Origin: Prochloraceae cyanobacterium
Lineage (GTDB): Bacteria; Cyanobacteriota; Cyanobacteriia; Cyanobacteriales; JASJDA01
Assembly: GCA_030065755.1 (NCBI GenBank)
Contig: JASJDA010000007.1
Coordinates: forward strand, 1 to 54,767
DNA: 54,767 bases
Direction: 5' to 3'
This document shows, one piece after another, positions 7,773-17,086 of the stretch. Below the pieces are notes generated by a model. That model searched no databases and was not told the origin of the DNA. It saw only the letters and a program-made list of their open reading frames with translations. A program made the position numbers and the translations under genes. The stretch's first letter is position 1, and each line of letters opens with the position of its first letter.

Positions 7773-9392
7773 CTAAAGCGGTTGCATCTCTGATATGGGT
7801 TGAGGTGGGGCGGAAAAAGGGCTATCTCCATTCTTACCCACTTCAAACAGACTCATCATCGAGTGGTCTTCATGGACTAAATTATGGCAGTGAAACATAT
7901 ATTTGCCTTCAATGTGCTCGCCATTACGCGTGCTAAACCTAGCAATGACTCGTACTGTCTCAAAGTGACCCACTCGAAAGACATCTTTCCAACCTCGCTC
8001 GTAGGATCGAGGAGAGCGACCGTTGCGATCGAGAATTTGCCAGTCCGTAAAATGAATGTGTACGGGATGGTCCCAGCCACCCTGGTTAACTAGTTTCCAA
8101 ATTTCGATCGCACCTGGTTCGGGATTGGCATCAACTCGGTTTTTGTTCCAGATTTTGCCATTGATCGTCCAATTTCGGCCACGTCCGAAGACGAAAGTGC
8201 GGAGGGGTACCTCTTGTCCGGAAGGAATTTTATCAATCAAGGGTTCAAAATCTCGTAGATGGTCAGGCAAATCGCTGTCATCAGGCTCTGACAGTTCCAC
8301 ATCAAAACGCATGATGGTCTGTACGCGAGTATCTTTGTCAAAATTACTGTTTGATTGAATTGAAGGATTTCTCAGGAATACTTGGGTGTGGAGCGGATAT
8401 TGAGCAAAATCGATGATAAACTCATAACGCTCAGCTGGAAAAAGCTGTAGAGTTTTTAGAGGCGATTCTAATTCCACTGGCTCGCTGAGTAAACCACAAT
8501 CGGTTCCAATCACAAACAACTTATCGCCCCTAGTTAATTTATTCTCTTCCTTACTCAAAACTAGTTGGTAAGAGCGTGAAGTGGAGGCGTTAAGAACTCG
8601 GAAGCGGTATTTACGCCTAGCTACTTTCATATAAGGCCAAGGGACTCCATTCACTAAGATAACATCAGCATAAAGTCCTTGTTGGTTTCGATCGTTGAAG
8701 ATTAAGCGATTATCATCGCTGGCGAATCTCAGATCCTGAAGAATTAAAGGAACATCATACTTACCTTTGGGTAAGTTAAGCTGACGCTCTTCTTCATCTT
8801 CCACAATATACATACCTGCTAAACCCATATACACATTCCGCGAAGTTCGATCGATGGCATGATCGTGGTACCAAATTGTAGCGGCGCGATCGTTAGGATA
8901 AAAGTAATCTTTAAAATAACCTGGAAGGCTCAGATCCTCAGCATGACCGTCGTACTGAGGCAGTGAAGCCATACCGTGTAGGTGAACAGTGGTAGAGATA
9001 GGTACTTCCTCTCCTTCTTCGAGAGTTGTGCCCAACTGATTAATAAAACGGATTAGAGATGAACGACCCCGATCTTCGTCTCGAAAACCTCCTCGCTGCC
9101 TGATGATGGGGCCAGGAATCATGCCCTCATAACCCCAGATTTGAGTTTTTTCCCCAGGCAAAATTTTAACTTGATTTTTGCGCATTGTTATTTGGTAAAT
9201 ATCAATGGGGCGATCGCCACCCTCATAACTGCGTATCGGCTTGAGAACGGGCGGCATCTGGAAAGGACGCTTAAAGCGATCGATTTGCGGGCTCGATTGA
9301 GCCCAAGCCTCACTAGGAAAATCCTGGGATAATAAAAGACCTCCACCCCCTATCAATCCAAGTTTGATTGCCTCTCGTCTAGTAATTTTCAT
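7773..9392 (-). CDS. Tat-exported multicopper oxidase (laccase/bilirubin oxidase/CotA-like)
   Basis: A 539-residue multicopper oxidase. The N-terminus carries a twin-arginine signal (TRREAIKLGL, hydrophobic core, cleavage near EAWAQ), so the enzyme should be exported folded. All four copper-ligand clusters are visible: HLHG, WYHDHA, HPVHIH and the C-terminal HCHNLVHEDHSMM, which holds the type 1 ligands and an axial methionine. Length and order fit three-domain CotA/bilirubin oxidase-like enzymes, which oxidise phenols, bilins or metal ions and reduce oxygen to water. The substrate cannot be read from the sequence. It is convergent with the small secreted protein gene, and other oxidase genes lie just downstream in the window. 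Confidence 0.95.
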   Translation of the reverse strand: MKITRREAIKLGLIGGGGLLLSQDFPSEAWAQSSPQIDRFKRPFQMPPVLKPIRSYEGGDRPIDIYQITMRKNQVKILPGEKTQIWGYEGMIPGPIIRQRGGFRDEDRGRSSLIRFINQLGTTLEEGEEVPISTTVHLHGMASLPQYDGHAEDLSLPGYFKDYFYPNDRAATIWYHDHAIDRTSRNVYMGLAGMYIVEDEEERQLNLPKGKYDVPLILQDLRFASDDNRLIFNDRNQQGLYADVILVNGVPWPYMKVARRKYRFRVLNASTSRSYQLVLSKEENKLTRGDKLFVIGTDCGLLSEPVELESPLKTLQLFPAERYEFIIDFAQYPLHTQVFLRNPSIQSNSNFDKDTRVQTIMRFDVELSEPDDSDLPDHLRDFEPLIDKIPSGQEVPLRTFVFGRGRNWTINGKIWNKNRVDANPEPGAIEIWKLVNQGGWDHPVHIHFTDWQILDRNGRSPRSYERGWKDVFRVGHFETVRVIARFSTRNGEHIEGKYMFHCHNLVHEDHSMMSLFEVGKNGDSPFSAPPQPISEMQPL

Positions 9393-11434: not shown

Positions 11435-13198
11435 ATGAATGTCAATACTAAGAACCTAGTCGTAATCTACGAACACGCCAATTATCAAGGAGAAAATCAA
11501 AGCTTAAGCGAAGGAAAATACAATCTCGCAGATATCAACATTGGTAACGATAAATTAAGTTCGATTAGGATTCCATATGGAATAAAAGTCACCTTATTTG
11601 AACACATAAACTTTCGAGGTCGAAGGAAAACTTTTACCACAAACACCAAATATGTAGGAGATGATTTTAACGATTTAACCTCATCATTAACAATAGAGAA
11701 GCAAAAGATCTGTACAGGTCATGGAAATATAGGTAATTGTGCCACAACTGCAGAAGAAAGAGAATTAGAATCTCCTTTTTCCCGTTTATTTGACAGATCC
11801 GATCTAACTTACAACGCACACGCTATCTCGCTTTTGGCTGGCGCTCTCGGCCCGATGCAAGAAAGCCCGACAAATAATTCGTTTAAACCTTCGATACAAG
11901 CAGGTTTCACCTTCCTCGGTCAATTTATCGACCACGACATGACTGAATTTAGGGTGCTTGACGAAGAAGGTAAATTTGTAGATAAAAATCCTACTATTGG
12001 AGTTAGACAAAGAGTAGCACCAGAAGAAAATCCTACATCTACTAATGGCAGAAGTAGTCGTCTGGATCTCGACTCTGTTTACGGGCTTTTTGGAGAAACC
12101 AATCCAGAACTTTTTGACGATAATGGCTTTTTTATTCTCGGAGACGCTCGACGAAGTAACGGAAAAGGCGAACGAGATATTCAAAGAAATACAGATTTCG
12201 GCGACGGTCGCCGAATAGCCGATCCGCGAAACGATGAGAATAAGATTATCGTGCAGTTGCATACTCTCTTCATGCGTCTGCATAATAAAATTCATGCCAA
12301 TAATGGCGGAGACATAAAAAGTCCTGGCTTTACCGAGAGCAAAAAAACAGTACAACAGATATATCGTCAGATCGTATTCTGCGATTATTTACCTCGTATC
12401 GTTACCACCAAAGTTATCAATAACGTCAAACAAGCAATCAAGGAGGGTAAAAGTTTTTATCAGCAAATGAACCGTGAAGTAAACCGAGCTCTAGAAAGCG
12501 AGAAACCTTTAGTAGCAATGCCAGTAGAGTTTGCTCACGCTGTTTTTCGATTGGGTCATTCTCAATTGCTGGATTTCTATCGACTTAACACAAACAATGT
12601 CTTTCCTTTATTTGCCACTTCACTGACAGGACAACAAACTGACCTGCGAGGTAACGAACAAATTACAGAAGAAACACAAATCGATTGGTCCTTTTTCTTT
12701 GGAGAAAGGGCACAACTGGGAAGACCTTTAGATACGAAACTGCCTCCATCTGTATTTCGTTTACCCCCTCCAGCGATTACCGAACCCCCTATTTCTTTAG
12801 CCGAACGCAACATTTTGAGGGGAATTGATTTTGGCTTGCCTGGCGGTCAAGAAGTTGCCGTAAGTTTGCGTCAGCTTTACGGTCAAATTGAGCTAGTACC
12901 ACCACAATTCCTCGGTATTCCCAAAGATATTTCAGAAATAGAGCCTAGTTTAGAGGTCAATACTCCCCTGTGGTATTACATTCTTAAAGAGGCAGAAGTT
13001 TTAAACCTTCAAAACTCTCAACTAGGTGAAGTTGGAGGGTATATAGTAGCAGAAACTATTCTCGGTTCTCTTGCTGAATCTGGTTTTGAATTTAATATTA
13101 GTTGCCCTAACTCTCTCGAAAAATCAGCAAATATTAACAACCCAAAAGAAATTTTTTCGCTAGTAAATTTGTTGAGTTTTTTAGGAGAGATTAATTGA
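11435..13198 (+). CDS. Beta/gamma-crystallin domain fused to an animal-type heme peroxidase
   Basis: A 587-residue fusion without a signal peptide. Residues about 7-90 form a beta/gamma-crystallin domain of two Greek keys, with calcium-site motifs NDKLSS and NDLTSS. The rest is a peroxidase-cyclooxygenase superfamily domain. Distal residues Q163, D166 and H167 (QFIDHDM), R265 and E268 (DPRNDEN) and proximal H375 (RLGHSQL) align with myeloperoxidase Gln91, Asp94, His95, Arg239, Glu242 and His336. The position equivalent to myeloperoxidase Met243 is Asn269, so the sulfonium link should be absent while both ester-forming acids are kept. It likely oxidises halides, thiocyanate or phenols with peroxide. 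AAGGA precedes the ATG. Confidence 0.93.
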   Translation: MNVNTKNLVVIYEHANYQGENQSLSEGKYNLADINIGNDKLSSIRIPYGIKVTLFEHINFRGRRKTFTTNTKYVGDDFNDLTSSLTIEKQKICTGHGNIGNCATTAEERELESPFSRLFDRSDLTYNAHAISLLAGALGPMQESPTNNSFKPSIQAGFTFLGQFIDHDMTEFRVLDEEGKFVDKNPTIGVRQRVAPEENPTSTNGRSSRLDLDSVYGLFGETNPELFDDNGFFILGDARRSNGKGERDIQRNTDFGDGRRIADPRNDENKIIVQLHTLFMRLHNKIHANNGGDIKSPGFTESKKTVQQIYRQIVFCDYLPRIVTTKVINNVKQAIKEGKSFYQQMNREVNRALESEKPLVAMPVEFAHAVFRLGHSQLLDFYRLNTNNVFPLFATSLTGQQTDLRGNEQITEETQIDWSFFFGERAQLGRPLDTKLPPSVFRLPPPAITEPPISLAERNILRGIDFGLPGGQEVAVSLRQLYGQIELVPPQFLGIPKDISEIEPSLEVNTPLWYYILKEAEVLNLQNSQLGEVGGYIVAETILGSLAESGFEFNISCPNSLEKSANINNPKEIFSLVNLLSFLGEIN

Positions 13199-13633: not shown

Positions 13634-13744
13634 CTAGTTAGCTTAGAATTTTGTCAATTAAATTAATTTACCTGTCAACGAAAAATTTACACCTAGCAAT
13701 ATTTTGCTTGCCAACATAAATATAAATATGAAGGAAAAATAGTG

Positions 13745-16060
13745 ATGAGCTTAATCGACGATGTAAAGGCAATATGTGACCGACTTGCACCCCTAGGGTG
13801 GAGAAATTTACTGTTAACTGTAACTAACAATGAACTTGACATTTTGCAGCCAACGAGTGATGCCTTAAAAGCTGCTTTGACTAACCCTCTTAAGACGATC
13901 GATCGCTCGACGAGAGGGTTTGAGGATTTTCATCCTAATGGGGAACAGGCGATCGCAGGTGGTAGTCCTGCCAAAAGTCTGCTTTATCACGCTTTGGCAT
14001 CCCCGAATGTTCGCCCAACTGCATCGGGAACTTCATCCTCGACAGCAACAGATTATGCGACCCTTGCAGAACTCGATACGATCGAAAATTTTATTTATAG
14101 CCTAGTTGCGGATCGAGAGGATCTAGAGAATACTTTTGTGGCTGTGTTTGCTTATCAGTATCGCGTCGCTAGTCGTACCTCACATCTGAGGCATGCCGAT
14201 CTTGCCTACTCTCGCACTGGTGTGGCACGGGTTGGTACAACACAATATTACTACGACCCTTCGCGGCGCAGTTTTTGGGTTATTCCTGAAGGTGGTGAAG
14301 ATGCTCTCCCAGTGCTGCCTGCGCGCTACGGTGTTTTTCTTGCTCGTAAAGCTAAACCAGGAGCTGCTGGCTCTGTTCAAGGAGGTCATAGCGGCAATGC
14401 CGACGATGATTTTTTCTTTCCGGTGCATAAATTATTTGTTGGAAGAGAATGTTTGCAGGGCCAAAACCTAGACATTAACTTTCTCGAATTCCATCGCAAT
14501 GAAAAACTCCGAATGACACATACGCTTTCAGTATCTGATGGCGGTATTCCTGTGCCCTCTGGTTTCGACATTTCTAAAATTCCATACGTTCGGGATTCTA
14601 ATAACGGCGGTAATTTAGTATCTTTGCAAACGATAGGATCTTCTGTCCTGATTGTGCCGAAACCTGGAGCTAATTTGGTTCGTACGGTGGCACAGAAAAA
14701 TACAGTCTCGAATACCGAGCAATTAGTTTATTTTGTTGTTCCACAAACACGCAGTATTCGAGGGCGCTCAACTCGCTACAGGGAATCAACTTTAGAAATT
14801 CCTGCATTTGAGTCCAATCCAGGTGAATTTGGCGATCGTCTTGCTCCCGAATACGTGAATATCCGGCACGAAGTTGACCCCAACGGACCAGCCACTCAAA
14901 CCCCAAAAGATTTGAACAATTTAAGCAAGGATGATTTTGAGAATGCGATGCGCAAAGGGGGATATGCAGCAGCGCATTTCACTGATGATTCCTGTGATGG
15001 ATGCCTTGAAGCTGTTGTAACTGGTCTTACGATGGATGTTGTTGGCAATGTTTCGGCCTTTTCATTAATTACCGCACCAGATTTCTTCCCACTTGCCGAC
15101 CAGTTCGAGGTAGAAACTGACCCAACAATCATACGAGTAGAACCTCTCTCTAAAGGAAGATTGCCTGTAAACTCTTCTCTCCCTCGCCCCAGCGCTCCAA
15201 TGTCATTTGCTTTCGATCGAAGTGACAAAACAGTCACAGCAATTGTAGGCGCCTTTGCAGTCGGGGCACCAGTTTCAATCGCTGGATTCCCTAATCGTGC
15301 GATTAGCTTCTTGCCCGATGCGGCCTCTAATGTCTTTGCTCCTGGCTGGGATACTTCCCGAAGTCGCGACGCACTAGGAGCGTTTCTCACCAGTTCAGGC
15401 CTTGGGTCGCCATTCCCAGAAGACGCTAAACTTTGTGCAGCACTGGCCTCTTTCTGGCCAGCAGTTGCGCCAGATAACGGACGAACCTTTGGGAACGAAA
15501 ACTCTTCTGGTAACAGAGGCTTGGGCAATCAGCTCCCGATGCTCGATAAAGAACTCGGGTTTCATCCCGATCACGCACGGGTAAAATCCGGTGAATTGAG
15601 CTCCTATCGTGGATGGGACGGAGAATTTGGCCCCTTCTTTGAAGAGGTCGGCACAACGCTTCATGTGAACTATGTCGCCATTGAACGCTCAGATTATGTG
15701 AGCCAAGCATTAGCTGGGCATATTCGGGTGTCTCTTACTGCCGAAGTGCAAAGTGAAGAGCTAATAGCTCGCAATCAGGCTCTTGAAACTTGTCAGAGTA
15801 TTTTGGGTGTGGGACTTTCAGGGGAATGTCTGGTTGTGTTTCGCGAGGTTAACGACTGGGCTTCATTTGGTCGTGGCGTTCCCCAGTTGAATGGCGGAGG
15901 CTACTTGTTGGAATTTGCCGAACTAACAGGTGAGCGAAAACCGACTTCAGAAATCGTGCGTGTACGCAAAAAAGTGCAAAAGCAGCACATTTGTCAGGTT
16001 GGTACCAATGGTATTGCCTACAAAAATGGGGATGCGGCTTTTACTTTTCATCCGTTCTGA
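13745..16060 (+). CDS. Large uncharacterised protein paired with a LodB-like flavoprotein (candidate quinone-cofactor enzyme)
   Basis: A 771-residue soluble protein with no signal peptide. I do not recognise a named family. The ATG at 13745 is nine bases after AAGGA; an in-frame GTG lies one codon upstream. The N-terminus reads SLIDDVKAICDRLAPLGW. A stretch near residue 155 (TGVARVGTTQYYY) faintly recalls the N-terminal ARVG region of LodA-type oxidases. Cys564 and Trp571 lie close together in LCAALASFWPAVAPD, and a CDGC motif occurs near residue 419. The LodA signature around its modified Trp was not found. The next gene, 33 bases on, encodes a LodB-like protein, which makes a post-translationally made quinone cofactor plausible but unproven. 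Confidence 0.8.
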   Translation: MSLIDDVKAICDRLAPLGWRNLLLTVTNNELDILQPTSDALKAALTNPLKTIDRSTRGFEDFHPNGEQAIAGGSPAKSLLYHALASPNVRPTASGTSSSTATDYATLAELDTIENFIYSLVADREDLENTFVAVFAYQYRVASRTSHLRHADLAYSRTGVARVGTTQYYYDPSRRSFWVIPEGGEDALPVLPARYGVFLARKAKPGAAGSVQGGHSGNADDDFFFPVHKLFVGRECLQGQNLDINFLEFHRNEKLRMTHTLSVSDGGIPVPSGFDISKIPYVRDSNNGGNLVSLQTIGSSVLIVPKPGANLVRTVAQKNTVSNTEQLVYFVVPQTRSIRGRSTRYRESTLEIPAFESNPGEFGDRLAPEYVNIRHEVDPNGPATQTPKDLNNLSKDDFENAMRKGGYAAAHFTDDSCDGCLEAVVTGLTMDVVGNVSAFSLITAPDFFPLADQFEVETDPTIIRVEPLSKGRLPVNSSLPRPSAPMSFAFDRSDKTVTAIVGAFAVGAPVSIAGFPNRAISFLPDAASNVFAPGWDTSRSRDALGAFLTSSGLGSPFPEDAKLCAALASFWPAVAPDNGRTFGNENSSGNRGLGNQLPMLDKELGFHPDHARVKSGELSSYRGWDGEFGPFFEEVGTTLHVNYVAIERSDYVSQALAGHIRVSLTAEVQSEELIARNQALETCQSILGVGLSGECLVVFREVNDWASFGRGVPQLNGGGYLLEFAELTGERKPTSEIVRVRKKVQKQHICQVGTNGIAYKNGDAAFTFHPF

Positions 16061-16093
16061 TTTATGTTGGCGATTTCTTTAAGGTAACTGGCC

Positions 16094-17086
16094 GTGGAAA
16101 AAGTAGATATCATAGTCCTTGGAGCAGGTCCCGCTGGTTGTGCTGCCTCGATTCGTTGTCGTCAAGCTGGTTTAAGCGTCGTTATGTTCGACGCTAATTC
16201 TGAGCCAAAAATATCTCCTGGAGAAACATTGCATCCAGGAGTTGAACCATTACTGAAGCAATTGGGTGTTTTTGACCAAATTCTTCAAGCGGGTTTCCGA
16301 AGGCATCGTGGAATCTGGCTGAAACGCGGCGATCTAAGTCAATTTTTGCCTTATGGTGAAGATATAAACGGTCCTTGGTTGGGGTTTCAAGCAGAGCGAA
16401 GAACGCTACATCGAATTCTCCAGCAGGCTGCCGTTGATTTAGAGGTAAGGCTAATTCGGAAAACTCGCCCTGAAGCAGTTATTCTCGAAGAGAATCGAGT
16501 GACAGGAGTAATGGTTGATGGCAATTACTTCCATGCCACTTGGACAGTTGATGCTACAGGGCGTTCTGCATGGCTAGCACGAGAGTTAAAACTGCCAGCA
16601 ATTATATGCTCTCCGCCCCTTGGCGTTCGATTTGGGTGGCGCAACGAAGAAATTGCTGGTTTTGAGGGTCAACCCTCCTTGGCTTTTCGCTTTGATGGAT
16701 GGGACTGGCAAGCACCCTTAGCAGGAAATCAAACCGCTTGGGTCGAACTGCGAATCGGGGAATTGGGAGAGGGATCTCCTGGGGGGGTTAATTTGACCTG
16801 GCAATGGCGCTCGGAGTGCGCAGGTCCTGGTTTTTTCCTGCTTGGGGATGCAGCTGCAACACTAGATCCTTCCTCGTCCCATGGGGTACTTACCGCTCTA
16901 ATGAGCGGAATCTTCTTTGGCCATCTTGTGGAAAATTACCACCGCAAAGGGGTCAATGAGGCAGTTATTATCGAAGTATATCGAAAATGGTTGTACTTGC
17001 AGTTTGAACAAGATCGAAGACGCTTGCGTCAGCACTACGCAAATTCACCAGCAGGTCAACGTTTTATTAACCAGAGTTCATATTAG
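16094..17086 (+). CDS. FAD-dependent oxidoreductase, LodB/tryptophan halogenase-like
   Basis: A 330-residue flavoprotein. The dinucleotide-binding motif is at the N-terminus (VLGAGPAGCAASIRCRQAG), followed by SPGETLHPGVEPLLKQLG and the second FAD motif in FFLLGDAAATLDPSSSHGVL. This pattern fits the flavin monooxygenase/halogenase group that includes LodB and GoxB. Those proteins hydroxylate a tryptophan of their partner oxidase during assembly of cysteine tryptophylquinone. The halogenase WxWxIP motif was not seen, so chlorination is unlikely. The start is GTG, with AAGG nine bases upstream. It lies 33 bases after the 771-residue protein gene, on the same strand, so the two are probably one transcript. 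Confidence 0.85.
   Translation: MEKVDIIVLGAGPAGCAASIRCRQAGLSVVMFDANSEPKISPGETLHPGVEPLLKQLGVFDQILQAGFRRHRGIWLKRGDLSQFLPYGEDINGPWLGFQAERRTLHRILQQAAVDLEVRLIRKTRPEAVILEENRVTGVMVDGNYFHATWTVDATGRSAWLARELKLPAIICSPPLGVRFGWRNEEIAGFEGQPSLAFRFDGWDWQAPLAGNQTAWVELRIGELGEGSPGGVNLTWQWRSECAGPGFFLLGDAAATLDPSSSHGVLTALMSGIFFGHLVENYHRKGVNEAVIIEVYRKWLYLQFEQDRRRLRQHYANSPAGQRFINQSSY

Follow-up and report, generated by a model that had tools for sequence, protein, structure and literature searches.

Few classes of enzymes with protein-derived quinones are known. The lysine oxidase LodA and the glycine oxidase GoxA build their quinone cofactor from a tryptophan of their own chain. In LodA, the cysteine tryptophylquinone (CTQ) cofactor is formed by Cys516 and Trp581, and a published survey of the LodA family relied on BLASTP (PMC4417212). 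In QHNDH the same cofactor is derived from Cys37 and Trp43, at a spacing of 6, with Asp33, Cys37 and Trp43 following the same D-x3-C...W order (PMC7876137). These residues lie in QhpC, a gamma subunit of ∼9 kDa that carries radical-SAM crosslinks and belongs to a haem enzyme, and the flavoprotein QhpG is needed for CTQ in QHNDH. The genes of the LodA/GoxA oxidases (Pfam LodA_C, PF18417) are directly followed by a flavoprotein gene, encoding LodB or GoxB.

Here we describe a gene pair from a Prochloraceae cyanobacterium, located on a stretch of 54,767 nucleotides of contig JASJDA010000007.1 (the window). We consider it likely that the large protein of the pair, P0001, is a deeply divergent quinoprotein of the LodA/GoxA superfamily, and that the flavoprotein, P0002, is its dedicated LodB-like maturase.

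Layout and distribution of the gene pair

An earlier, sequence-only reading of the window had described a large open reading frame followed 33 bases later by a flavoprotein gene, and both frames are present as claimed, on the same strand. P0001 (771 residues) begins with ATG at 13745, although an in-frame GTG at 13742 would lengthen it by one residue; P0002 (330 residues) begins with GTG at 16094. The coordinates below include the stop codons of both genes. Cys564 and Trp571 in LCAALASFWPAVAPD, the CDGC motif (residues 417-420) and the ARVG stretch (161-164), all singled out in the same reading, are likewise found in P0001. The features of the locus are as follows.

11435..13198, + strand: haem peroxidase, animal-type, with an N-terminal beta/gamma-crystallin domain (Pfam An_peroxidase, 2.1e-15)
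13745..16060, + strand: P0001, putative quinoprotein, predicted divergent LodA-superfamily oxidase (open reading frame, homologues in 13 other genomes, LodA profile homology)
14225..14236, + strand: ARVG motif, P0001 residues 161-164, matching LodA IGIARVGN (hhalign hit 2)
14984..15001, + strand: DDSCDG, residues 414-419, the start of the segment DDxxDG...AFSLITAPDFFP that matches LodA (hhalign hit 1)
15335..15352, + strand: FAPGWD, residues 531-536, probably equivalent to FxPGxE of LodA (weak sub-hit in hhalign, E 0.17; PDB sequences)
15410..15436, + strand: PFPEDAKLC, residues 556-564, with Asp560 and Cys564, predicted to correspond to LodA Asp512 and Cys516 (alignment, invariance)
15452..15475, + strand: FWPAVAPD, residues 570-577, with Trp571, predicted CTQ tryptophan corresponding to LodA Trp581 (alignment, conservation)
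16094..17086, + strand: P0002, FAD protein of LodB/GoxB/QhpG type, predicted maturase (profile matches, adjacency, own clade)

The P0001 family is rare but spread over several bacterial phyla. Homologues were found in 13 further genomes (14 in total) of cyanobacteria, proteobacteria and planctomycetes, in a search that took in 386 cyanobacterial genomes, plasmids, a collection of genomes at species level, and additional proteobacteria and planctomycetes. Matches occurred in four of the 386 cyanobacterial genomes, one of them as a short remnant only, and in a proteobacterial-phylum sample of 398 genomes the sole match was the starting genome; the viral contigs searched contained no relatives. 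The remnant (L004 1492-1590, genome G125) comprises about 30 residues, HADLCFSRTGVARVG, within an 82-residue frame, and is apparently a decayed copy. Another family member is carried by the conjugative Acaryochloris plasmid pREC1 (L029 6001-8409), where it is annotated as a hypothetical protein. A literature search that reached few subscription papers returned no description of this branch.

Pairwise identity among family members ranges from ∼28% to 86%. The closest relative of P0001 is encoded by a gammaproteobacterial MAG (71% identity), whereas the cyanobacterial relatives are more distant (38-50%), which suggests horizontal transfer of the gene. Base composition is unconvincing as further evidence of transfer, insofar that GC content is 0.48 vs 0.40 yet third-position GC is ordinary.

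Remote similarity to LodA and the candidate cofactor residues

Unlike the LodA/GoxA oxidases, P0001 is not detected by Pfam or NCBIfam (zero matches even at E 5) or by significant BLAST hits, none of 10 family members tested matched the Pfam LodA models, and searches of PADLOC, PHROGs and PDB gave nothing beyond chance. Two chance-level candidates were discarded: aminopeptidase N from PDB for P0001 (E 0.4) and RSE1 for the family profile (E 1.5).

Comparison by hhalign with a set of 18 LodA-family proteins, gathered by the Pfam LodA_C model and from plasmids, returned three matches that do not overlap and that have the same order in both proteins. The first joins P0001 residues 414-449 to LodA DDxSDGPV...AWVVVAPPxYAP (E 1.8e-4, score 45.9), the second TGVARVG to IGIARVGN (E 9e-3, score 32.4), and the third GSPFPEDAKLCA...FWPAVAP to PWQxDxxxC...WPAxxP (E 0.17). 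P0001 and LodA/GoxA accordingly share collinear ARVG, DDxxDG, (A/P)PxF/YxP and D-x3-C...WPAxxP motifs. The individual matches are not strong, and the hhalign probability is only 48%. In 200 column-shuffled profiles, however, single scores reached a maximum of 24.2, which is exceeded by both the first and the second hit, and the collinear score sum was at most 43.9 as against 116.8 for the real comparison; the latter sum counts a fourth, insignificant hit if collinear, and the three named hits alone give 100.2. When the C-terminal region was compared alone, the Cys/Trp segment was matched at E 0.0065, and a score as high came up in 3 of 500 shuffles. Weak BLAST matches fall on the same segments as the profile matches.

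Taken as a comparison of sequences, this is good evidence, short of proof, that P0001 is remotely homologous to LodA. It could be argued that P0001 is unrelated, that its likeness to LodA arose by chance or convergence, and that P0002, though encoded in the same operon, is a monooxygenase or halogenase of the ordinary kind that acts on small molecules. The lack of significant single-sequence similarity and the weak individual E-values would fit such a view, as would the low confidence of AlphaFold, which with 8 sequences in each run gave unusable models (mean pLDDT 37 for full P0001 and 32 for residues 378-690). We nevertheless regard it as very unlikely, given three same-order matches that lie far above the shuffles and fall on the CTQ residues, and given the lasting adjacency across phyla and the dedicated flavoprotein clade presented below.

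The supposed lack of a LodA signature in the large protein has to be revised, as a degenerate form, D-x3-C...(F/W)WPAxxP, is retained, too faint for Pfam or BLAST to pick up. From the earlier suggestion of a divergent or new class of peptidyl-quinone oxidase we retain the first half: P0001 would represent a divergent LodA branch with its own maturase lineage, and since the resemblance to LodA extends along much of the protein, "divergent class" describes it better than "new system". The layout differs from that of LodA by ∼150 extra residues at the N-terminus, ∼200 residues after the tryptophan, and a shorter distance between DDxxDG and the cysteine.

The positions of LodA were fixed by aligning a Pseudoalteromonas protein with the PDB entry 2YMW (numbering offset 20), which places Asp512 and Cys516 in PWQADFFNC and Trp581 at the second W of YWWPPQSP. 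In the alignment their counterparts are Asp560, Cys564 and Trp571 of P0001, so that P0001 carries a cysteine and a tryptophan at the CTQ positions; the PWQxDxxxC of LodA/GoxA is replaced by PFPEDxKxC in the P0001 family. Of all 30-residue stretches in P0001, that at 553-582 is the most conserved, and it comprises this segment. Each of the 14 family sequences that span the region has Asp560, four residues ahead of the cysteine, as well as Cys564 and Trp571; Cys564 is the only cysteine among the invariant positions. The pair proposed by the sequence-only reading was thus well chosen, being both invariant and aligned to the CTQ pair of LodA. The CDGC cysteines fared differently: they vary among the homologues, in which DxxxxG (D414...G419) is conserved instead, and this rules them out as a metal or disulfide site.

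The spacing between cysteine and tryptophan is 7 in P0001 and 65 in LodA. A spacing as short as that in P0001 is found in one protein of the LodA family (L014). The D-x3-C...W order is also common to P0001 and QhpC, although P0001 is a single, large protein, beside which we saw no QHNDH-type haem-enzyme or radical-SAM genes. In the FxPG motif, the weakest alignment of all, P0001 has Ala532 where LodA has cysteine (CPG) and GoxA has histidine (HPG); the substrate of P0001 may therefore differ from those of LodA and GoxA.

The flavoprotein and its association with P0001

The identification of the flavoprotein, originally made from motifs, is borne out by profile searches, in which QhpG, GoxB and LodB were among the best named models. 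The best NCBIfam match of P0002 was QhpG (2.5e-27, 95.9 bits, curated cut-off 240), followed by GoxB (2.7e-23, 82.6 bits, cut-off 400); LodB was matched as well (3.6e-12, 46.0 bits, cut-off 400), and P0002 is thus far below the cut-offs of all three. P0002 belongs to the same FAD superfamily as LodB and GoxB (NF038171, NF038174), has the N-terminal FAD motif and the GDAA..DP motif in common with them, and like theirs its gene adjoins that of the quinoprotein, here a predicted one. It differs from them in its low scores, its shorter length and its position in a separate clade.

A P0002 homologue lies immediately downstream of the P0001 homologue in 13 of the 14 genomes (the window and 12 others), which bears out the proposed co-occurrence. 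The remaining copy is that of the Acaryochloris plasmid, where no flavoprotein was found on the 393-kb record, the search being of the plasmid only. A maximum-likelihood tree was built from 24 flavoproteins without an outgroup and is hence unrooted; in it, a branch with 100/100 support splits the 13 partners of the P0001 family from 11 LodB proteins that accompany ordinary LodA genes, and the P0002 group falls outside the clade of the latter. Distances within the P0001 family correlate with those of the flavoproteins (r 0.86, a value never attained in 5000 permutations), a correlation that shared ancestry of the pair as one unit would also produce.

Besides maturases, the relatives of P0002 include halogenases. 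This adds to another view of the locus, namely that the fold of P0001 is related to that of LodA and that the flavoprotein does modify P0001, but to a product other than CTQ: a mono- or dihydroxylated tryptophan, a halogenated tryptophan, or a quinone at Trp535 or Trp624. Both of these tryptophans are also invariant in the family alignment, and the Cys-Trp spacing is far below that of LodA. Short spacings are known, however, in QHNDH and in L014, the two top named families of P0002 are CTQ maturases, and the sole invariant cysteine, together with Trp571, aligns on the CTQ pair. We therefore find a product other than CTQ quite unlikely, and favor the reading of P0001 as a CTQ quinoprotein of LodA ancestry with P0002 as its maturase.

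Neighbouring genes, predicted reaction and implications

According to the favored reading, P0002 would complete the oxidation of Trp571 to the o-quinone after translation, and Cys564 would form a thioether to the Trp571 indole, giving cysteine tryptophylquinone. Asp560 would be the neighbouring acid, like Asp512 in LodA and Asp678 in GoxA. Mature P0001 is probably an amine or amino-acid oxidase: with O2 as oxidant, a primary amine or an amino acid would be converted to an aldehyde or a ketoacid, with release of ammonia and H2O2.

The haem peroxidase gene (PF03098) has the same orientation as P0001 and lies 546 bp upstream of it; no second PF03098 match was found in the 8.46-Mb genome. In the window genome the peroxidase may use or remove the H2O2 formed. 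Related peroxidases adjoin the pair in two other genomes, in one of which both peroxidase copies do so. The remaining family members have different neighbours, and the peroxidase is consequently not a constant partner. Near the member on the Acaryochloris plasmid there are genes for a DyP peroxidase and a lipase.

The peroxidase neighbours in three genomes also bear on the possibility that P0001 is a LodA-like quinoprotein that does not oxidise free amino acids, but instead targets amines in proteins or peptides, or else partners the peroxidase in a redox or structural role. The large additional N- and C-terminal regions of P0001 and the altered FxPG position, with alanine in place of histidine or cysteine, point in the same direction. 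To our knowledge, however, all characterised members of the LodA superfamily are amino-acid oxidases, and we consider this possibility unlikely. For P0001 as an H2O2-producing oxidase one may go further and propose, tentatively and at somewhat less than even chances, an undescribed class of CTQ quinoproteins, rare and widely scattered, in which nothing of LodA but the catalytic residues and a few motifs is preserved. Such a class would act on a new substrate, be served by a maturase lineage of its own, and in some genomes form an H2O2-producing and H2O2-using pair with a haem peroxidase.

Two further observations concern the surroundings of LodA-type genes. A ferritin-like gene lies directly upstream of a LodA gene on plasmid p3 of Azospirillum brasilense (L036 1-554); ferritin-like genes beside LodA have been reported for fungal loci. 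The window also contains a multicopper oxidase gene (Cu-oxidase_2/3) at 7773-9392 on the - strand, and multicopper oxidases have been reported near some LodA operons (PMC4417212).

Elsewhere in the genome of the window (C145 and C348) there are two ordinary LodA-family genes (L012 and L013), each with a LodB-like flavoprotein. Together with the pair described here, they would make three predicted CTQ systems in one genome, and these can be compared in a single organism. The P0001 branch is one to which BLASTP is blind at significance. Its distant alignment shrinks the constants of the LodA family to D-x3-C...WPA, DDxxDG and ARVG, and so provides a test of which residues are needed for CTQ formation. 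Likewise, a maturase lineage that has changed alongside its partner is a natural point of comparison for the way in which LodB-type flavoproteins recognize a single target.
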